Source: an uncultured Bacteroidales bacterium (GTDB lineage Bacteria; Bacteroidota; Bacteroidia; Bacteroidales; F082). From it: a stretch of 64,000 nt of DNA. The stretch spans positions 62,001-126,000 of the forward strand of contig ONFO01000003.1 in NCBI GenBank assembly GCA_900317155.1. Direction: 5' to 3'. Below are positions 2,274 to 48,593 of this stretch, piece after piece. A model generated the notes under the pieces. The model had not been told where the DNA came from, searched no databases, and saw only the letters and a list, made by a program, of their open reading frames with translations. The position numbers were made by a program, and so were the translations under genes. Positions within the stretch are counted from its first letter, which is position 1; every line of letters begins with the position of its first letter.

Positions 2274-3191
2274 TTATTTGTACAAATCCTTTGGCGAATA
2301 AAAGTCGTAGGGCGGCATCGTTGCAGGGTCAAGGTTCGTGTAAGTGCCGTCCACTTGGAGTTTCTCCTTTCCATAGATATAATGGCGACAGAACCACACA
2401 AGGTCATCAACTGTCAGTGGACCACCTGCAGCAACGCTGTGACCATAGCCCTCAAAACGACGGGCAAAATAAGGATAGTCATACTTCTCGAAACGTTTCA
2501 CCAAAGCATCAGTCCCATAAAAGCCAATATTGAAGAAGCTTATCCCCTTGTATGACACCAAGTTATCCATCGTTCCGTGAAACATCATGGTCGGGGCTGG
2601 CTCACGGTTGCGATATTGCACCTTACCTTCATGCGAGAATATGGCACCTGCGTATGAAACCACACCTGCCAAGCGGAAGTCTTCAGGAAGGATGTCCGAA
2701 TTTAGGAATCCGTTGCACATCGCATAGTCCACCTGCAAAGCGGTGATGGCACCCGCACTTGAACCAATCATCACAATGTAATCCTTGTTGACTTTCAGGT
2801 CTTTGGCATGTTCAAGCAGATAATGCAAAGCCGAAATGGCATCTTCCGTAGCCATGTAAACCGCTTTCTCCACAGGATCAGTGTTGAGGACACCAATGTT
2901 TTTGGCTCCAATGAGGCCTAGTCGATAATCAATTGAGGCCACCATGAAGCCTTTGTCGACAAGCTGCTTGAAATAGGCTTTTTCCCATTTGCCGTCACGA
3001 TGTCCACCGATGAAACCGCCCCCAAAGACATAGACCAAACAGATGGTGCTGTCGTTGACATGCTCCGGAGTATAGAAATCAAGATAAAGCTGGAGCGTGT
3101 CGCGCTCAGCGTATTGATAGGTTTTCATGTCCTGGCCAAAGGCCGTCATGCCCGCTAGGAAAATTGCTAAGAGTAAGATTATTCTTTTCAT
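2274..3191 (-). CDS. Secreted alpha/beta-hydrolase, carboxylesterase-like
   Basis: 305 residues starting at MKRIILLL, chosen because it opens a clean Sec signal peptide (cleavage about TAFG-Q). The fold signature is in order: an oxyanion-hole motif VFGGGFIGG in the position of the esterase HGGG, the nucleophile elbow GSSAG, an acidic residue in the strand FHGTMDNLV and the histidine in GYGHSV. This matches carboxylesterase/feruloyl-esterase-type hydrolases of Bacteroidota, which cleave ester substituents from peptides, lipids or plant glycans. The substrate cannot be read from sequence. It sits between lpxD and DUF481, separated from lpxD by a palindromic repeat. Confidence 0.8.
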   Translation of the reverse strand: MKRIILLLAIFLAGMTAFGQDMKTYQYAERDTLQLYLDFYTPEHVNDSTICLVYVFGGGFIGGHRDGKWEKAYFKQLVDKGFMVASIDYRLGLIGAKNIGVLNTDPVEKAVYMATEDAISALHYLLEHAKDLKVNKDYIVMIGSSAGAITALQVDYAMCNGFLNSDILPEDFRLAGVVSYAGAIFSHEGKVQYRNREPAPTMMFHGTMDNLVSYKGISFFNIGFYGTDALVKRFEKYDYPYFARRFEGYGHSVAAGGPLTVDDLVWFCRHYIYGKEKLQVDGTYTNLDPATMPPYDFYSPKDLYK

Positions 3192-5802: not shown

Positions 5803-5840
5803 ATTGATTAGATTTGTGATCATTCCATTTGTTTATGGCG

Positions 5841-40987: not shown

Positions 40988-42148
40988 ATGGACAATCGTT
41001 ATGCTCAACGCGGCGTTTCAGCCGAAAAGGAAGACATTCACAACGCCATCAAGAACCTTGATAAGGGTCTCTATCCCAACGCATTCTGCAAAATCATTCC
41101 CGACATCCTCGGCCATGACCCTCTGTATTGCAACATCATGCATGCCGACGGCGCGGGAACCAAGTCATCGCTCGCCTACCTCTATTGGAAAGAGACTGGC
41201 GACATGAGCGTATGGGAAGGCGTGGCACAAGACGCCGTGGTGATGAACACCGACGACCTCATCTGCGTGGGTGCAACTGACAACATGCTCCTCTCCTCCA
41301 CCATCGGACGCAACAAGAGCCTGATTCCAGGCGAGGTGATCTCCGCCTTGATTAACGGAACGGAGCATTTCTTGCAGAAACTCCGCGACTTGGGCATCGG
41401 CATCTATCTCACTGGTGGCGAGACCGCCGACGTGGGCGACCTCGTGCGCACCGTCATCGTCGACAGCACCGTGACGACACGCATCCGCCGCGATGAAGTG
41501 ATTGAGAACAACCTGCAACCCGGCGATGTTATCGTGGCCTTCGCCTCTTACGGACAAGCCACTTACGAGGACAGCTACAACGGCGGCATGGGCAGCAACG
41601 GCCTCACTTCGGCCCGCCATGATATGCTGAATCATTACTTGGCTGAGAAATACGACGAGAGCTACGACCACAGCATCCCTGAAGATTTGGTCTATTCCGG
41701 TCCGCACAAACTGACTGATCCGACTGAAGTCCCCGGCGTGGACGTAGGCAAACTCATCCTCTCGCCCACCCGCACCTATGCCCCGCTGATGATCCCGATC
41801 TTGAAGGAGTTCCGTAAACAAATCCACGGCATTATCCATTGCAGCGGCGGCGCACAAACAAAAGTACTGCACTTCGTGGATAAGTTGCACATTGTGAAAG
41901 ACAACATGCTGGCTTTGCCGCCTTTGTTCAAGATGATCCAAGCCGCTTCGGGCACCGACTGGCACGAGATGTACAAAGTCTTCAACATGGGCCATCGTTT
42001 GGAGATTTACACCAACGAAAAGGCTGCCAATGAGATGATTAACATTGCAAAGGAATTCAACATTGATAGCCAGATCATTGGGCATGTGGAGGGTTCGGAT
42101 GCGAAGCGACTGACTATCAAGAGTGAGTTCGGAACTTTTGAATATTAA
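40988..42148 (+). CDS. purM: Phosphoribosylformylglycinamidine cyclo-ligase PurM
   Basis: 386 residues, long for AIR synthase (~345) but normal for the Bacteroidota form. Motifs: the N-terminal RYAQRGVSAEKEDIHNAI, HADGAGTKSSLAYLYW (ATP site), VWEGVAQDAVVMNTDDLICVGA, LTGGETADVGDLVRT and CSGGAQTKVLHF. It closes FGAM to AIR in purine synthesis using ATP. I recall purM, prfA and pyrF as neighbours in Bacteroides; here 4.5 kb of unrelated genes separates purM from prfA. Confidence 0.93.
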   Translation: MDNRYAQRGVSAEKEDIHNAIKNLDKGLYPNAFCKIIPDILGHDPLYCNIMHADGAGTKSSLAYLYWKETGDMSVWEGVAQDAVVMNTDDLICVGATDNMLLSSTIGRNKSLIPGEVISALINGTEHFLQKLRDLGIGIYLTGGETADVGDLVRTVIVDSTVTTRIRRDEVIENNLQPGDVIVAFASYGQATYEDSYNGGMGSNGLTSARHDMLNHYLAEKYDESYDHSIPEDLVYSGPHKLTDPTEVPGVDVGKLILSPTRTYAPLMIPILKEFRKQIHGIIHCSGGAQTKVLHFVDKLHIVKDNMLALPPLFKMIQAASGTDWHEMYKVFNMGHRLEIYTNEKAANEMINIAKEFNIDSQIIGHVEGSDAKRLTIKSEFGTFEY

Positions 42149-42169
42149 ACAAACCATAAAACAAAAACA

Positions 42170-43516
42170 ATGAAAAAGCTACTCTCATCGTTAGTATTCG
42201 TTATTCTGTTTCATACCATTGCCAATGCTCAATTCAATAACACTTTTATTGATGCTTTCTTCCCCGAAAGCTCTTATTACCAAGGCCATTCCAACAATTC
42301 CAACTATCAGTTGGACACTTTAAATTGGAGTGAATGGTATAACTATACTAATCCTATTAATGGAGGAGTCTATCATTCTCTCTGTCATTACAGATATGTC
42401 TTCAATTATCTTCCAGATGGTCATGTCCATCAAATAATGAATTATGCTTTCTCCAGCTATAATCAATGGGTACAAGGCAACCGTTATTCTTTTGAGTATG
42501 ATGAAAATGGCAGACTGACGACCTTTATAATAGAACAGCAAAGGCCAAACGGACAATGGCAGTATTATACAATCAAAGAATACACGTACGATGACCTAAA
42601 CAGAGTATCTGTTGTGTACTCCACCTCTTGGAATGGAGAAGGCTATGAGGATGGCCATCAGGAGTATCGATTCGAATACGATGAAGTTGGCCATTTGGTC
42701 AGCAAAAGTGTGTTTTTGAATAATCTTGATATCTATTTTTGCCGTTGGCTATATACTTACGAAAACGACAAAATGACTTCTGAGTGTTATCAAAGTTGGG
42801 CTAATTCAACATGGAACAATAATAAATTGTACGTCTACTCTTATGAAAACGATAACATTTCCAATAAGTTGTATCAGATATGGGATGATTCAGAAGAAGA
42901 CTGGTGTAATTTTGAAAATATAACATACAATTATCGGCCGGAGGAAGCAAAAGCTTTTATCATTTATCAAGCGTGGGAGAATGAATGGATAAACTTGTTC
43001 CGAGCAATTAGTTTCATTTCCAATGGCCAGTTAGTAATAGAGAGTACACAAGAATGGCAAGACGGGGATTGGATTGACTTTTCCATGTGCGACTATTCTT
43101 TTGACGATTCTGGAAATTTCATAGAGGCAAAATGGAAAGATTATGTTGATGGTGAATGGGTTGATAGTGACTACAATTCCGAAACCACTATCAGTTATAA
43201 TAATGGAGCATCTATTCTTTATGGCTATATACAATCTTTTCAAGCAAGATACTCATGCACTGGTAATGTCATAGAATCCTCTTTCCCCCATCAAACAGAA
43301 GTCTTCCCTAATCCAGGATCAAACCAATTCACTATCCAAACTGAAACTCCGTTCTCTAATGTGATTGTTTATGATTTGATGGGGCGTCAAGTATACAACC
43401 AAGCCATTTCCGGAAACACAATTCGTATCGACACAAACAATTGGCCTTCTGGGGTCTACTTTTGGAAAGCATATAGTTCAAGTTCTACCTTATGCGGGAA
43501 GTGGGTAAAAAACTAA
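42170..43516 (+). CDS. T9SS cargo protein with YD-like repeats
   Basis: 448 residues with a Sec signal peptide (ending IANAQ). The body is a series of strand repeats with Tyr/Asp/Asn/Trp turns (YSFEYDENGRLTTFI, YTYDDLNRVSVVYSTS, FEYDEVGHLVSKS, YSYENDNISNKLYQIW) resembling YD/RHS-type or MORN-like beta repeats. The last ~75 residues are a type A sorting domain (VFPNPGSNQFTIQT, VIVYDLMGRQVYNQ, WPSGVYFWK). The DNA is visibly more AT-rich than purM or prfA around it, consistent with acquisition. It forms the first accessory module between purM and prfA. Confidence 0.75.
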   Translation: MKKLLSSLVFVILFHTIANAQFNNTFIDAFFPESSYYQGHSNNSNYQLDTLNWSEWYNYTNPINGGVYHSLCHYRYVFNYLPDGHVHQIMNYAFSSYNQWVQGNRYSFEYDENGRLTTFIIEQQRPNGQWQYYTIKEYTYDDLNRVSVVYSTSWNGEGYEDGHQEYRFEYDEVGHLVSKSVFLNNLDIYFCRWLYTYENDKMTSECYQSWANSTWNNNKLYVYSYENDNISNKLYQIWDDSEEDWCNFENITYNYRPEEAKAFIIYQAWENEWINLFRAISFISNGQLVIESTQEWQDGDWIDFSMCDYSFDDSGNFIEAKWKDYVDGEWVDSDYNSETTISYNNGASILYGYIQSFQARYSCTGNVIESSFPHQTEVFPNPGSNQFTIQTETPFSNVIVYDLMGRQVYNQAISGNTIRIDTNNWPSGVYFWKAYSSSSTLCGKWVKN

Positions 43517-43533
43517 TCCTTTAATCAAACACC

Positions 43534-43628
43534 ATAGACATCACCGAAAAACTTGAAACGATTGTCACGGGTGTTGTCCGAACCTTTTATTGACGAATTT
43601 TGGTGAAACCACCATTTTTCGTCTTTTT
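43534..43628 (+). repeat. Relic prfA 5' end plus palindrome, copy 1
   Basis: ATAGACATCACCGAAAAACT then TGAAACGATT would translate [10 protein letters not shown], matching the first ten residues of prfA ([10 protein letters not shown]) at 46655 but with ATA for ATG and several synonymous changes. About 30 bp later comes an inverted repeat TGACGAATTTTGGTG / ACCATTTTTCGTC (43591-43623). The same two-part unit is at 45932. It is not expected to be translated. Confidence 0.7.
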
Positions 43629-43653
43629 TTGTGCTTTAGCACATCTTCCAGCA

Positions 43654-44265
43654 TCACAATTCCCGAACGATGGCATCCAAAGTCCGTCCATCGGAGCCAA
43701 AGCCAAGCTTTTCCTTCAATTTTTGTTTCCGCTTGAAAATGGCGCTCTCCGAAACGCAATAGATTTCGGCCAGTTCAAAGGTCGAAAGACCTGATTTTAC
43801 TAAACAACAAAATTGGAAATCCTTGTCGGAGAGGCCTTTATCCTGAAGCAATGCTGAAAACGAGGTGTAAACCGCGATTACAACCTCACATAAAGCACTT
43901 ATTTCCTGATCATTCACTGGCTCAAGAGACGTTCTCCGATTCACAGAATAATAACCTTTTGAGACCAACGACTTATAAGCATCGGACTGGCGAAGCAATT
44001 TCACGGCTTCCTTATCTTCGCCTGCTGGCATTACACTCTTCGACCGTTTCTTTCTACTCCAAACTAAACCAACAAATACAATAACTAACAGGCCAATTGT
44101 CAAGCCTTTCCAAACCCATGATGATTGTCCTTCGACTTCTTTCTTGCCATTTGCAAAAGTGAGCTGATAAGCAGTGACGCCAGTGATGCTATCCGTCGCG
44201 AGCGACAAGTTTTCGACAGGTTCCTCCAAATGAAATCTCATTGGTTTTGCAATTGTATCAAGCAT
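43654..44265 (-). CDS. Membrane-anchored HTH regulator (LuxR-like)
   Basis: 203 residues. A short N-terminal, presumably periplasmic, segment (about 1-48) precedes one membrane helix (about 50-68, WVWKGLTIGLLVIVFVGLVW) and a basic stop (SRKKRSK). The C-terminal ~65 residues read SDKDFQFCCLVKSGLSTFEL then AEIYCVSESAIFKRKQKL, a LuxR-type helix-turn-helix as in membrane-bound Bacteroidota regulators. The usual long TPR sensor domain is missing, so it is either a short form or truncated. It is divergent from the lipoprotein at 44433, and phased repeats between them are candidate binding sites. Confidence 0.7.
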   Translation of the reverse strand: MLDTIAKPMRFHLEEPVENLSLATDSITGVTAYQLTFANGKKEVEGQSSWVWKGLTIGLLVIVFVGLVWSRKKRSKSVMPAGEDKEAVKLLRQSDAYKSLVSKGYYSVNRRTSLEPVNDQEISALCEVVIAVYTSFSALLQDKGLSDKDFQFCCLVKSGLSTFELAEIYCVSESAIFKRKQKLKEKLGFGSDGRTLDAIVREL

Positions 44266-44284
44266 AATTTCTCCTTTTGTTTCG

Positions 44285-44292
44285 CAAAGATA
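44285..44292 (-). promoter_or_regulatory. -7 element for the HTH regulator
   Basis: The minus strand reads TATCTTTG then CG, 19 bp before the start codon. Confidence 0.6.
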
Positions 44293-44340
44293 ATAGTTTT
44301 CAAGATGCGTCAGGTCTTTTCCAACTATTCGGAGACATAA

Positions 44341-44384
44341 TTCCAGTATTTTTCCAGTAAAATTCCAATGTTATTCCAGCGTTT
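44341..44384. promoter_or_regulatory. Four TTCCA(G/A) repeats at exact 11-bp spacing
   Basis: Units begin at 44341, 44352, 44363 and 44374: TTCCAGTATTT, TTCCAGTAAAA, TTCCAATGTTA, TTCCAGCGTTT. The spacing is one helical turn, so all cores face the same side of the DNA. They lie midway between the divergent HTH regulator and lipoprotein genes. Direct repeats phased like this are typical of cooperative binding of a regulator; that use is inferred. Confidence 0.6.
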
Positions 44385-44432
44385 TGAATGGCCGTTTTAC
44401 CAATTTTGCCGTCAAATTAAAACACATATACC

Positions 44433-45863
44433 ATGCACAACATCAGAAAAAGCCTTTTGGCACTCATGCTCGTCACAATGACGATTTCTTGCACAGCGCA
44501 GAACGAAGAAGTCTATGTCACCGCCAACACTAACCTCTGCCCCAACTGTTTCAACCAATATCGGATGCTCGATAGTCTCGATGAAACCATTCCGCTGCAT
44601 TTGGTCTTTCAGAACAGCAATCCTAAAGAAGCTAAGAGGTTTTCAGACAAGTTTTTGCACATCACACGTGACTTTGACTTCATTTGCGACGATTCGCTTT
44701 ACACATCTCTTTCGCACAACGTCTTTCCTTGGCTGTACTACTACAAAGAAAGTGTACTCATTTTCGACGCTAACTTCAACCAAAGTGAAAAATGGATAGC
44801 TATTTTTAATAGGCTTCATGAGCAAAATGACTTTGCAAAGAAAATCGCCCAATTGCCTTATGAAGTGATCCTATCCGAAGACAGTAGATGTATATTATTG
44901 GGAAACAAATACCTATTCATGGATTTTACCTACAACGAACTTCACTTGTTCGACTCGGATTTCCGATTTTTGAAAACCCAAGATTTTGCAAATTCAGACT
45001 TCTCCACACTTTATCAAAACGTTTTCCACGATGAAAAGACTTGGAAGGACGTAAGTCGTTATGCCACAGAGATTAAATCCTATATTCCAGATTTCGGAAG
45101 AGTTAAGATCAATAATGGCTGTATCTTTAATGACACGTTATTTATGCTCATCAATGTCAACTATATCGAAAGCTATTACAACGAAAAAAGACAAGATTCC
45201 GCCGTCAAAGCGATGAATGAAAGTGCTATCATCGGTTTGGATGAACAGCTTAACATTCAGACAATCTATCCTTTGCGCTTTCGCGATTCATTACGATTCG
45301 ACGATTTTATAGTCAATGCATACGCACACTGCGTCTTTCAAATCAACGATTGGGATGACATTATTCTGAGTATTTCACAAAAGGAAGAAAGCGAAAAGCA
45401 TATCCTTTGCAGAATGGAGAAATCGAACGGAGAAATCAGGTTCAAATCACTGGTTAACAACGCTTTCATCCCTGAATTCAACGAAAAGCACCAACTTGGG
45501 ACAAAACTATGTTTGATTAAAGCTGACGGTCAAAACGCCTATTTCAATGCCGCACCCATCATTACCAACTACGAAAACGACCGTATCCTCGAACTGCCAT
45601 TCAACAACGACAACGCGCATTTTGACCTAAATCATGGCATTGCAGAAGCAGATTACATCCTTGCAGACGCCTTTCAAACAGCTACTGGTGACTATTTATT
45701 GTTGTATTATCTCGAATCGAAGAACAAAGTAAGCCTCGTGGATACGACAGGTTCAATAGTTTGGACACTTCATCTTCCTGACAATTGGTCAAAGGCATAC
45801 TTGGTTGACGAGATGCACCTGTTTTTCATTGATGATGACAACTGTCTCTTCAATGCATTTTAA
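44433..45863 (+). CDS. Lipoprotein with thioredoxin-like N-terminus (CPNC) and unknown C-terminal domain
   Basis: 476 residues; the signal ends at lipobox TISC (Cys20). The N-terminal 120 residues read as a thioredoxin-like fold: strand EEVYVTANTN, then LCPNCFNQYRMLDSL (CxxC at a helix start), IPLHLVFQNS, and VFPWLYYYKES with a Pro at the cis-Pro position. The remaining 350 residues are strand-rich with repeated turns (KYLFMDFTYNELHLFDSDF, IIGLDEQLNIQTIYPL) and could be a beta-propeller, but I do not recognise the family. It is divergent from an HTH regulator and forms the second accessory module before prfA. Confidence 0.6.
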   Translation: MHNIRKSLLALMLVTMTISCTAQNEEVYVTANTNLCPNCFNQYRMLDSLDETIPLHLVFQNSNPKEAKRFSDKFLHITRDFDFICDDSLYTSLSHNVFPWLYYYKESVLIFDANFNQSEKWIAIFNRLHEQNDFAKKIAQLPYEVILSEDSRCILLGNKYLFMDFTYNELHLFDSDFRFLKTQDFANSDFSTLYQNVFHDEKTWKDVSRYATEIKSYIPDFGRVKINNGCIFNDTLFMLINVNYIESYYNEKRQDSAVKAMNESAIIGLDEQLNIQTIYPLRFRDSLRFDDFIVNAYAHCVFQINDWDDIILSISQKEESEKHILCRMEKSNGEIRFKSLVNNAFIPEFNEKHQLGTKLCLIKADGQNAYFNAAPIITNYENDRILELPFNNDNAHFDLNHGIAEADYILADAFQTATGDYLLLYYLESKNKVSLVDTTGSIVWTLHLPDNWSKAYLVDEMHLFFIDDDNCLFNAF

Positions 45864-45931
45864 TCATCATCAGTTGGTTTCAGCGTTGGGCATTGAATTA
45901 TTTCGTACCTTCGCCCAATAAATAATAAGCC

Positions 45932-46018
45932 GTGGACATTGCCGAAAAACTCGAAACGACAGGTGCAATCCATTTTTTATTGACGAATTTTGGCAAAAAC
46001 GCCAATTTTCGTCAATAA
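45932..46018 (+). repeat. Relic prfA 5' end plus palindrome, copy 2
   Basis: GTGGACATTGCCGAAAAACT then CGAAACGACA would translate (M/V)DIAEKLETT, again resembling the prfA start. It is followed after about 25 bp by the inverted repeat TTGACGAATTTTGGC / GCCAATTTTCGTCAA (45980-46014). Against copy 1 the whole ~90-bp unit aligns with scattered changes. The palindrome ends about 10 bp before the VapBC -7 box, so it could double as the toxin-antitoxin operator. Confidence 0.7.
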
Positions 46019-46023
46019 TTTTG

Positions 46024-46031
46024 TATTTTTG
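46024..46031 (+). promoter_or_regulatory. -7 element for the VapBC-like module
   Basis: TATTTTTG then CG, 23 bp before the antitoxin ATG and directly after the palindrome. Confidence 0.65.
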
Positions 46032-46054
46032 CGAAGTATTGAAAAACAAAAGTC

Positions 46055-46276
46055 ATGACAACGCTCAGTGTAACCATAGACGACACTAACAAACTCCAAA
46101 TGCTATTGGATTGGCTTCGTTCCATCTCTTTTGTAAAAAAAGTGGAGATCGACGAGTCATCAACAGGGAATTTTGATGAGGTTATGAAAGTATTGGAACA
46201 AATTCCCGAAGGTGGAATTTTGAAGGAAATTACGGATCCTGTCGAATGGCAAAGGCAACAACGCGATGAGTGGTAA
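46055..46276 (+). CDS. Antitoxin of a VapBC-like pair
   Basis: 73 residues. An N-terminal strand MTTLSVTIDD and helix TNKLQMLLDWLRSISFVKKV suggest a ribbon-helix or Phd-like dimer domain, and the acidic, helical C-terminus with WQRQQRDEW fits a toxin-wrapping tail. I cannot place it in a named antitoxin family. It overlaps the PIN toxin gene by 11 bp, the usual arrangement for coupled antitoxin-toxin synthesis. Confidence 0.75.
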   Translation: MTTLSVTIDDTNKLQMLLDWLRSISFVKKVEIDESSTGNFDEVMKVLEQIPEGGILKEITDPVEWQRQQRDEW

Positions 46277-46649
46277 GACTTTTATTCTTGATACGAACGT
46301 CATCATTTATCTTTCACAAGAGAAAATGAGGCTTACTGATTTCTCTTCAAAGGGCGATAGACTTTGCATTTCAATTATTTCCTATATGGAAGCGTTAGGC
46401 CATCCTTTCAATAACAAGATTGAAGAGACTATTGTCAAAAGTCTATGTGACACTTGCGAAGTCTTTAATCTGACAAAACAGATTATCGACAAAACCATTG
46501 AAATCCGTAAGCAAGCCAAGATTAAACTTCCAGATGCCATTATTGCTGCAAGTACATTGGTAAATAATGCAATTCTTGTTACCGCCAATGTTAAGGACTT
46601 CAAAATGATAGATGGAATTAGTATTATCAATCCTATTCCATTTCAATAA
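46266..46649 (+). CDS. PIN-domain toxin, VapC-like
   Basis: 127 residues, standard PIN size. Metal-binding acids are in the expected places: Asp9 in FILDTNVII, Glu in ISYMEALG, Asp in IKLPDAIIAAS, and the final VTANVKDFKMI with Asp. VapC toxins are Mg-dependent ribonucleases, most of which cut tRNA or rRNA. All acids are present, so it is probably active. The gene ends 5 bp before prfA. Confidence 0.88.
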   Translation: MSGKTFILDTNVIIYLSQEKMRLTDFSSKGDRLCISIISYMEALGHPFNNKIEETIVKSLCDTCEVFNLTKQIIDKTIEIRKQAKIKLPDAIIAASTLVNNAILVTANVKDFKMIDGISIINPIPFQ

Positions 46650-46654
46650 AGACA

Positions 46655-47761
46655 ATGGACATCACCGAAAAATTAGAAACAATAAAGCACCGCTGGGAGG
46701 AAATGGGCGAACAACTTGCCGACCCCGCCGTGGCTTCCGACATGAAAAAGTTCGTGAAGCTCAACAAGGACTATAAGGACCTGGAGCCTATCGTCATGGC
46801 CTTCAAGGAATACAAAACACTGAAAGCCAACGTGGAAGAAGCCCGCGAAATCCTCGCTACGGAGAAGGACGAGGAGATGCGCAAGATGGCCCAAGAGGAA
46901 TTGGACACCGCCCAAACGCGCATCGAGCAGTTGGAGCAGGACATCCGCGTGATGATGATTCCCAAAGACCCGCAAGACAGCAAGAACGCCATTATGGAAA
47001 TCCGTGCAGGCACGGGCGGCGACGAGGCCTGCCTTTTTGCTGGCGACCTGTTCCGCATGTACTCCAAATTCTGCGAAAACCGTGGTTGGAAGGTGGAAGT
47101 AACCTCTGTAAGCGAAGGCGCGAGCGGCGGCTACAAGGAAATCGACTTCACCGTGACAGGGAATGGCTGCTATGGGATTTTGAAGTTCGAGTCTGGCGTA
47201 CATCGTGTGCAGCGCGTACCCAAGACCGAGACTCAAGGCCGCATCCATACCTCCGCCGCTTCGGTGGCCGTGTTGCCCGAAGCCGAAGAATTCGACGTGG
47301 AAATCAACGAGGGCGAAATCAAATGGGACACCTTCCGCTCATCGGGTGCTGGCGGACAGAATGTGAACAAGGTGGAGTCGGGCGTGCGTCTGCGCTATAT
47401 GTGGAAGAACCCCAACACAGGCGAAATGCAGGAGATCCTCATCGAGTGTACTGAGACCCGCGACCAACCCAAGAACCGCGAACGCGCCTTGGCACGACTG
47501 CGCACGCGCATCTACGACATGGAATACCAGAAATACATCAGCGACATCTCCGCCAAGCGCAAGACCATGGTCTCGACCGGCGACCGCTCGGCGAAGATCC
47601 GCACTTACAACTACCCTCAAGGCCGCGTCACCGACCACCGCGTGGAAGGCTTGACAGTCTATAACCTCGCCGCCGTCATGGATGGCGACTTGGATGAAAT
47701 CATTAACCGTTTGCAGATGGCGGAAAACGCTGAAAGACTGAAAGAAAACATTGAATCATGA
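46655..47761 (+). CDS. prfA: Peptide chain release factor 1
   Basis: 368 residues, full length. The GGQ motif is in [18 protein letters not shown]. The stop-codon-reading loop is [15 protein letters not shown], with PKT at the PxT (PAT) position of RF1, which reads UAA and UAG. The C-terminal [20 protein letters not shown] is typical. It begins 5 bp after the toxin stop, and I see no promoter of its own; its natural upstream region seems to have been displaced, so it may now be transcribed from the VapBC promoter. pyrF begins 4 bp after its stop. Confidence 0.97.
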
Positions 47762-47765
47762 TATT

Positions 47766-48593
47766 ATGAATAAACACCAGTTATTTGAGCAAATCAAGAA
47801 AAAGCAGTCGTTCCTCTGTGTCGGGTTGGACACCGACATCAACAAGATTCCGCAGGAATTGTTAGCTATGGACGACCCCATCTTTGAGTTTAACAAACAG
47901 ATTATCAACAAGACTGCCCCGTACGCTGTGGCTTACAAACCCAACACCGCTTTCTACGAAGTGTACGGCGCCAAAGGCTGGCAGAGTCTTGAACGTACCG
48001 TCCAATACATCAAGAACAATCATCCCGACATTTTCATCATCGCGGATGCCAAGCGCGGCGACATCGGCAACACCTCGGCCAACTATGCCAAAGCCTTCTT
48101 CAACACCTTGAAAGCTGATGCCCTGACCGTAGCGCCTTACATGGGCAAAGACTCCGTAGAGCCGTTCCTCAACTTCGAGGACAAATGGGTCATCCTCTTG
48201 GCCTTGACATCCAACAAAGGTTCTCAAGACTTCCAATACCTGAACGTCGGCGAGCGCATGCTGCATCAACAAGTGTTGCAAACGGCCACCACTTGGGCAA
48301 CCTCAGAACAGATGATGTTTGTGGTGGGTGCCACCCATCCCGAGGAATTGGGAGAAATCCGCAAAATGTTGCCCGACTATTTCTTCCTTGTGCCAGGCGT
48401 AGGTGCCCAAGGTGGCGACTTACAAGCTGTGGCGCACAACGGCTTGAACGACGAATGCGGTTTGCTGGTCAACTCGTCGAGAGGCATCATTTATGCCTCC
48501 AATGGCAGTGACTTCGCTGTTCGCGCCGGTGAGGAAGCGAAGAAGTTGCAGGAGCAAATGGGGACGTTACTGAAGGAAAGAGGTCTAATCTAG
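47766..48593 (+). CDS. pyrF: Orotidine 5'-phosphate decarboxylase, type 2
   Basis: 275 residues from ATG 47766; an in-frame TTG at 47751 overlaps prfA and is less likely. It converts OMP to UMP. The catalytic Lys-Asp array is [19 protein letters not shown], with [15 protein letters not shown] and [14 protein letters not shown], plus the phosphate-binding [10 protein letters not shown] and NSSRGIIYA; this is the long bacterial/mycobacterial-type PyrF. It ends with TAG. It is translated closely behind prfA. Confidence 0.95.

Follow-up and report, generated by a model that had tools for sequence, protein, structure and literature searches.

Displaced copies of the prfA start between gene modules of the purM-prfA interval in an uncultured Bacteroidales bacterium and its relatives: a probable hotspot of module exchange by homologous recombination

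Ordered arrays of small cassettes are known from integrons. An array of similar appearance, with hairpin spacers between its modules, lies between the core genes purM and prfA in a 64,000-nucleotide stretch of DNA from an uncultured Bacteroidales bacterium (contig ONFO01000003.1; this whole stretch is hereafter the window), and it differs from an integron in that its repeats are the start of a gene and that no integron integrase over the cut-off was found in the genome (TIGR02249; 7 weak matches, 0 over cut-off); in integrons such an integrase is paired with attC sites. Our analyses indicate that the interval is probably a hotspot in one half of the genus, in which modules without a recombinase of their own are exchanged by homologous recombination in prfA combined with ectopic joins on the left. 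No report on the purM-prfA locus was found in the literature that we searched.

Several described systems share parts of this pattern. In the type VI secretion system (T6SS) effector-immunity arrays of Vibrio cholerae additions are stepwise, displaced genes are kept, no integrase is present, and homology-facilitated illegitimate recombination has been proposed (Kirchberger 2017, PMC5361080). The prfA locus resembles these arrays, as described there, in the serial addition of modules at one chromosomal place and in the remnant of the displaced gene that is found beyond the newcomer, but the V. cholerae arrays displace immunity genes or effector parts by a secretion cluster, whereas here the 5' end of an unrelated essential gene is displaced and the cargo is mixed (PMC5361080). 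That paper also draws a comparison with integron cassette arrays. Hotspots with constant core neighbours, high turnover, no mobility genes and raised exchange of the flanking core are described in PMC5635113, and hotspots with recombination at flanking core genes are also treated in PMC2884548. Variable content, a lack of mobility genes in the modules scanned and raised flanking exchange were all found at the prfA locus, the last on the prfA side only, and unlike the hotspots as they are presented in PMC5635113 it carries scars of the flanking genes that record the steps. The element SXT in prfC and the dusA-targeting islands restore the 5' end of their target gene and carry an integrase (PMC8409611), whereas neither an integrase in the module families scanned nor a crossover confined to a core site was seen, exchange extending ~160 nt into the gene. 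What sets the prfA locus apart is that the displaced part is the start of an essential, unrelated gene, and that it records the steps.

The gene order in the window is purM, a cargo protein of the type IX secretion system (T9SS), a first displaced prfA start (stub 1), a divergent pair of open reading frames (ORFs), a second displaced start (stub 2), a pair with a PIN-domain toxin, prfA and pyrF (Table 1). The displaced copies read ATAGACATCACCGAAAAACTTGAAACGATT at 43534 and GTGGACATTGCCGAAAAACTCGAAACGA at 45932, the true start being at 46655, and each stub consists of the first ~27 nt of prfA followed by a tail that is not prfA and then by a stem-loop. The three copies form one repeat family, in which two match the reference copy at 72% and 79% over 43 nt, and the stretch that follows each stub (TTTTATTGACGAATTTTGG..., 43585 and 45975) forms a second repeat (87% over 39 nt). 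In the 3.80 Mb genome a 23-base pattern in International Union of Pure and Applied Chemistry (IUPAC) code, with up to 3 mismatches tolerated, matched the three locus sites at 0 mismatches and one other site at 3, the backwards pattern giving 0 matches; because this search yields only one further site, the window stubs are not due to chance, and on the same grounds a dispersed repeat or mobile unit within the genome was rejected. When the first 27 nt of the window ORFs (at least 100 aa) were compared with the 8 kb upstream of each, prfA headed the list with 23 matches, a value reached by 1 of 3000 random positions; the second ORF (21 matches, at 5823, minus strand) was set aside as an A-rich MKK-type start, and the scan gave no other convincing ORF-start stub elsewhere in the window. 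The alignment scores of the two stubs are 54 and 50, and the best of 38 reversed-sequence controls reached 28. The sequence-only reading that preceded this work had proposed two relic prfA starts between three modules, and the pattern search, the repeat family and the scores above control confirm them. Its 90-bp unit is not scattered at unrelated loci of its own genome; ~27 nt of that unit derive from prfA and the remainder is tail and hairpin. Modules 2 and 3 are each preceded by a stub; no prfA stub lies between purM and module 1 in the window.

To place this locus among its relatives, we sampled 99 genomes of the genus (92 with a match to the prfA 5' end) and contigs of GTDB-220 (80 loci kept), and fetched regions from close relatives and from part of the sister half of the genus, which gave 68 intervals after removal of duplicate sequences (loci, genomes and protein families are denoted below by L, G and c numbers). 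All 15 intervals of the sister half are tight (2-69 bp), with a prfA product 62-66% identical to that of the window. The window's half comprises 53 intervals, 15 of them empty (2-8 bp) and 38 occupied, the latter with complete gaps of 430-5297 bp (32 complete, 6 cut by contig ends). Most occupied loci carry members of ~12 protein families in varying combinations (viz. small lipoprotein-like proteins, T9SS cargo, the c4-c5 pair, the PIN pair, a NYN protein, AAA/DUF4143, a DUF1016 nuclease, a SocA-like protein and others); contents vary across the 68 intervals compared, and the relatives do not all have the same intervening genes. Family c2, the T9SS cargo of the window, is for example the sole module before prfA in L040, L117 and L175 and the first module in L046 and L115. 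In a core tree built from 41 of the 49 loci that have a long prfA (those with too short a purM and the gapped L061 and L092 were left out) one supported clade is occupied in 25 of 29 loci, and the full contents require at least 22 changes, the occupied or empty state 6.

Stubs were sought in all 38 occupied intervals with 37 prfA 30-mers against a reversed-sequence control (maximum 28), and 7 stubs in 6 loci scored above this control (36-60), viz. two in the window and one each in L038, L041, L042, L115 and L189. Two further stubs, in L156 and L177, were identified only from their position behind the right flank of c0 and from a common tail, while matches in L044, L054 and L092, which score 29, one above the control maximum, lie inside the c1 gene and were taken as chance. 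Clear stubs end between prfA nt ~27 and ~38. The stubs decay, as is evident from the loss of the start codon in 3 of 9 (ATA in window stub 1, GCG in L041, CTA in L156) and from early in-frame stops in 3 of 9 (L041, L156, L177). Our reading of the interval contents recognised 15 multi-module loci, of which 6 have a clear prfA stub, 2 a purM stub, 2 a stub identified by context and 5 none (L051, L159, L160, L176, L197); 8 of the 15 thus have a clear stub of one gene or the other. Across the genus the prfA-start pattern was sought in 60 of 99 genomes (up to 3 mismatches; backwards control 0) and matched mostly at prfA starts; five genomes (G017, G034, G062, G075 twice, G082) gave six off-locus matches, with 2-3 mismatches, that were taken as chance. 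The hairpin pattern matched in 4 of the 60 genomes, in three of them at the purM-prfA locus (G000, G016, G079); the match in G026 lies elsewhere and has 3 mismatches, and the backwards control matched there too.

Comparisons between loci reveal common blocks that are broken at a stub or at the prfA start. A block of 2405 bp that opens 3 nt ahead of stub 1 and closes at the base preceding stub 2 is 97.2% identical in the window and L042, with core genes at 89.5% (purM) and 91.0% (prfA body) and unlike genes left of the common block. L042 and L059, in turn, share module c0 (99.66% over 588 bp) up to the stub of L042, and this stub is identical over 26 nt to the live prfA start of L059, the prfA bodies being 85.0% identical; the two loci represent intermediate states, L059 having one module and prfA, and L042 the same module, a stub, a second module and prfA. 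In L035 and L168 the module is 99.8% identical and prfA is identical over nt 1-161 and 89.2% identical over nt 181-1080. The c9 cassette of L038 and L177 is 94.7% identical over 1343 bp (prfA body 89.1%), and the c3-c6 cassette with tail J2 is 78.5% identical between the window and L189, a level at which its joining appears older than the c9 or c4-c5 cases. One right-hand cassette may follow different left modules: c9 follows c12 in L038 and c0 in L177, c4-c5 follows c2 in the window and c0 in L042, and c3-c6 with tail J2 follows c5 in the window and c8 in L189. Comparable stubs continue the native right flank of the left-hand module. Module ORFs are at least 5 points more alike than the prfA body in 16 of 127 pairs. 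Exchange between genomes whose cores are ~10-15% divergent has produced mosaic intervals with breakpoints at prfA starts and inside prfA; the order of arrival of two joined modules is not fixed by sequence alone.

Exchange inside prfA is also evident in the divergence at fourfold sites of the prfA alignment, for which occupied and empty loci were compared at matched body divergence (378 and 66 pairs; L061 and L092 left out of the windowed comparison for gaps and included in the label-shuffle test). Over nt 1-120 the occupied loci differ at 0.134 and the empty loci at 0.312 (ratio 0.43), while the ratio in the eight other 120-nt windows is 0.83-1.06, the homogenisation being limited to nt 1-120; the difference was reached in 0 of 300 label shuffles. 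Of the 38 occupied loci 21 have GTG as the start codon of prfA; none of the 15 empty loci does. The tract of L035/L168, the homogenised nt 1-120 and the GTG starts of occupied loci together argue that modules travel with the donor prfA start. Stepwise arrival, in which every module carries in a prfA start from its donor and so makes the gene whole again, had been proposed from the window, and it is supported by L059/L042, by L035/L168 and by the homogenised 5' end.

These patterns would be accounted for if ordinary homologous recombination moved small modules between species. On the right side the crossover would fall within prfA (near nt 161 in the clearest recent pair, L035/L168), so that an incoming module would bring its own promoter region and prfA start and leave a working prfA. 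On the left side a join in or near purM would give a clean replacement and an ectopic join an addition, in which the recipient's old prfA start (first ~27-38 nt) would persist as a stub that separates the earlier module from the newcomer. The first joins may have arisen by homology-facilitated illegitimate recombination, and since every stub repeats the prfA start over a short length in direct orientation, a unit of stub, hairpin, module and prfA could subsequently be joined or lost by recombination there. We infer that the recombination was of RecA type, that DNA entered by transformation or conjugation and that the first joins were ectopic; the 27-nt repeat would have been the seam at which crossovers took place, and the direction given to the steps is presumed. 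ComEC is present in the genome.

Fragments of purM provide further information on the left joins. Stubs of the purM 3' end (~115 nt) lie between modules in 2 of the 32 complete occupied intervals, viz. L046 (gap ~1368-1483) and L172 (gap ~1177-1289), in both cases left of family c1 and joined to the end of c2 (L046) or the middle of c6 (L172) without extended homology. Ectopic joins between two purM-X-prfA intervals explain these stubs and a prfA-only insertion site does not. Several stub joins share a tail, and these joins may therefore be inherited rather than new; an origin of the stub tail from the purM end was considered and is unsupported, the best local score being 20 where the 95th percentile of the null is 19 and both medians are 14. 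Strong stem-loops of a related kind, each followed by a promoter-like stretch, recur between modules (43585-43630, 45975-46031 and c1 right ends, such as L035 6925-6980), and the aligned stem-loops have paired changes (GACG/CGTC vs GGCG/CGCC).

A number of observations weigh against this explanation. Only 6 of 38 occupied loci hold stubs that score above the reversed control, and it is position and tail that identify the stubs of L156 (28, equal to the control maximum) and L177 (21). The two purM stubs have different left partners and yet start at one and the same purM base to within ~2 nt, and the three classes of stub tail do not align with one another. The explanation is weaker for the left boundary than for the right: purM has no matching dip in divergence, its last 120 nt giving a ratio of 0.84 and the eight other windows 0.73-1.00. 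In 90 of 127 pairs the module ORFs fall at least 3 points below the prfA body in similarity; most exchanges are old or from unlike donors. Occupancy is clustered on the core tree (6 changes, against a mean of 12.3 for shuffled labels), and the label shuffles used for prfA ignore kinship. ComEC permits DNA uptake and does not show it, transfer being deduced from the sequences, and the relatives are draft genomes, mostly metagenome-assembled genomes (MAGs), whose joins are known from assemblies alone. Lastly, occupied loci differ more in the first 30 nt of prfA (0.147) than in nt 30-150 (0.05-0.07), and crossovers may therefore cluster near nt 27-30, more tightly than generic homologous recombination demands.

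The first nine prfA codons could be regarded as a reusable exchange site, at which stub-hairpin-module units would enter and leave like integron cassettes without an integrase of their own, moved by short-repeat recombination or by an unknown factor acting in trans; we consider this rather unlikely. Site-specific integration in trans, in which the first ~27 bp of prfA would be an attachment site for an integrase encoded elsewhere, is disfavoured and seems more doubtful still, including the version in which cassettes that share a conserved left end, made up of tail and hairpin, behave like cis-mobilizable elements (CIMEs) or restore the 5' end in the manner of SXT in prfC and the dusA islands, which are a precedent (PMC8409611). 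The narrow range in which clear stubs end, the hairpin-bearing left end common to cassettes with unlike cargo, the direct repeats that bound the window/L042 cassette and the six tyrosine recombinase matches in the genome, all on other contigs, are in its favour. However, the Pfam scan of 15 module families and one 61-aa ORF, which left out the singleton families c11, c15, c17, c18 and c19, revealed no recombinase; the exact degenerate prfA-start pattern had 0 matches in viral contigs, on which a phage origin was also rejected. Moreover, exchange passes the 27-nt core to reach prfA nt ~160, right ends vary even for one cargo, the three tail classes are not alike, and the purM stubs would need a separate explanation.

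It is very unlikely that assemblers or binning joined modules of different species at the conserved prfA start. MAGs do make up most of the genomes, a repeat of 23-31 nt could mislead short-read assembly, and G094 carries the same purM-prfA interval on two contigs, but the joins recur in separate genomes (window/L042, L038/L177, window/L189), the stubs have diverged from prfA, unlike the product of an assembly join, and the blocks span kilobases on a single contig. Local tandem duplication of the prfA start followed by gene insertion, with no transfer of prfA alleles between genomes, would agree with stubs that are directly oriented beside an intact gene, but it is highly improbable given that stub alleles track the left-hand module across genomes and that prfA 5' ends are common to genomes with ~10-15% divergent cores. 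That the stubs are selected leader peptides or regulatory leaders derived from prfA, with the hairpins as attenuators, is scarcely credible, for although the stub 1 type can be read as an ORF of 18-19 codons that stops before a strong hairpin, start codons are lost and early stops have arisen in the stubs named above, and 30 occupied loci (including L046 and L172) have no recognised prfA stub, their best score being 29 against 28 in the control.

The features of the window locus are listed in Table 1. The T9SS cargo and the PIN toxin named in the sequence-only reading are borne out by Pfam, but its regulator, lipoprotein and antitoxin partner have no Pfam match; the first two labels rest on a reading of the sequence for this reason. 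We take the stretch at 45901..45931 to be promoter-like from its general resemblance to promoters.

Table 1. Features of the purM-prfA interval and its flanks in the window.
Feature	Coordinates	Strand	Evidence or remark
purM, left core flank	40988..42148	+	AIRS and AIRS_C matches (Pfam); ORF list
Module 1: T9SS cargo, C-terminal sorting domain, family c2	42170..43516	+	Por_Secre_tail 2.3e-12
Stub 1: displaced prfA start, start codon decayed to ATA	43534..43563	+	block common to L042 starts here
Stub 1 tail, class J1, not prfA	43564..43584	+	same in L042, L156, L177; diverged in L038
Stem-loop followed by T run, terminator-like	43585..43630	+	-14.9 kcal/mol, z -4.1
Module 2a: 203-aa protein, family c4, putative regulator of the sequence-only reading	43654..44265	-	no Pfam match
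Module 2b: 476-aa lipoprotein-like protein, family c5	44433..45863	+	no Pfam match
Right flank of module 2: presumed promoter-like stretch and leader	45901..45931	+	precedes prfA in L042, L118, L050
Stub 2: displaced prfA start, GTG	45932..45959	+	sequence repeat and alignment score
Stub 2 tail, class J2	45960..45974	+	common to L189
Stem-loop and promoter-like stretch before module 3	45975..46031	+	-24.5 kcal/mol, z -6.4; identical 57 nt in L038
Module 3a: small protein, family c3, putative antitoxin by position only	46055..46276	+	no Pfam match
Module 3b: PIN-domain toxin, VapC type, family c6	46266..46649	+	PIN 5.7e-11
prfA, intact release factor 1 gene	46655..47761	+	PCRF and RF-1 matches
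prfA first 120 nt, homogenised part among occupied loci	46655..46774	+	divergence profile
pyrF, next core gene	47751..48593	+	OMPdecase match

Some individual loci also deserve mention. L119 (G010) has a gap of 1220 bp of repeat-rich sequence (GAGGACCTCACCACAC-like units) with two minus-strand ORFs and without a recognisable module. Remnants resembling the c3-type antitoxin, without a PIN toxin, are present in L041 (~2881-3183 of the gap) and in L156 (after the stub).

Family c5 was matched in 15 genomes of the genus. Six genomes of the window's half (G000, G116, G079, G022, G014, G060) have it only at the purM-prfA locus and eight of the sister half have it on a contig other than that of prfA, while G114 has no PrfA match by which c5 could be placed. 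This module appears to have been captured a single time and exchanged among genomes afterwards. In G099 (sister half) and in G114 (L219, L220) c5 lies elsewhere, near a small protein that resembles, by eye, the c16 of L118, and in L219 c4 is also near c5; the older order of the module may have been c4-c16-c5.

The sister half (L201-L215) differs in prfA itself. Its PrfA, at the identity to the window's given above, is less similar to it than PrfA of Bacteroides fragilis (71%), and its PurM is 81-86% identical to that of the window. In trees with five sister rows the sister PrfA groups with L028, from another family, and PurM unites both halves with full support; judged from these trees, prfA looks to have been replaced in place in one half of the genus.

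Hotspots without mobility genes are common, and the way in which genes come to be added there, and not swapped, has so far mostly been inferred. The prfA stubs are seams, which reveal which module once stood beside prfA and which right-hand cassette joined which left-hand one, and in one recent pair (L035/L168) the end of the donor tract is visible ~160 nt inside prfA. Past gene swaps are thereby readable from the chromosome, and addition by homologous recombination can be put to the test in natural populations of bacteria that are mostly uncultured and mostly from ruminants, in which the start of an essential gene has been replaced repeatedly while the gene itself stayed intact.

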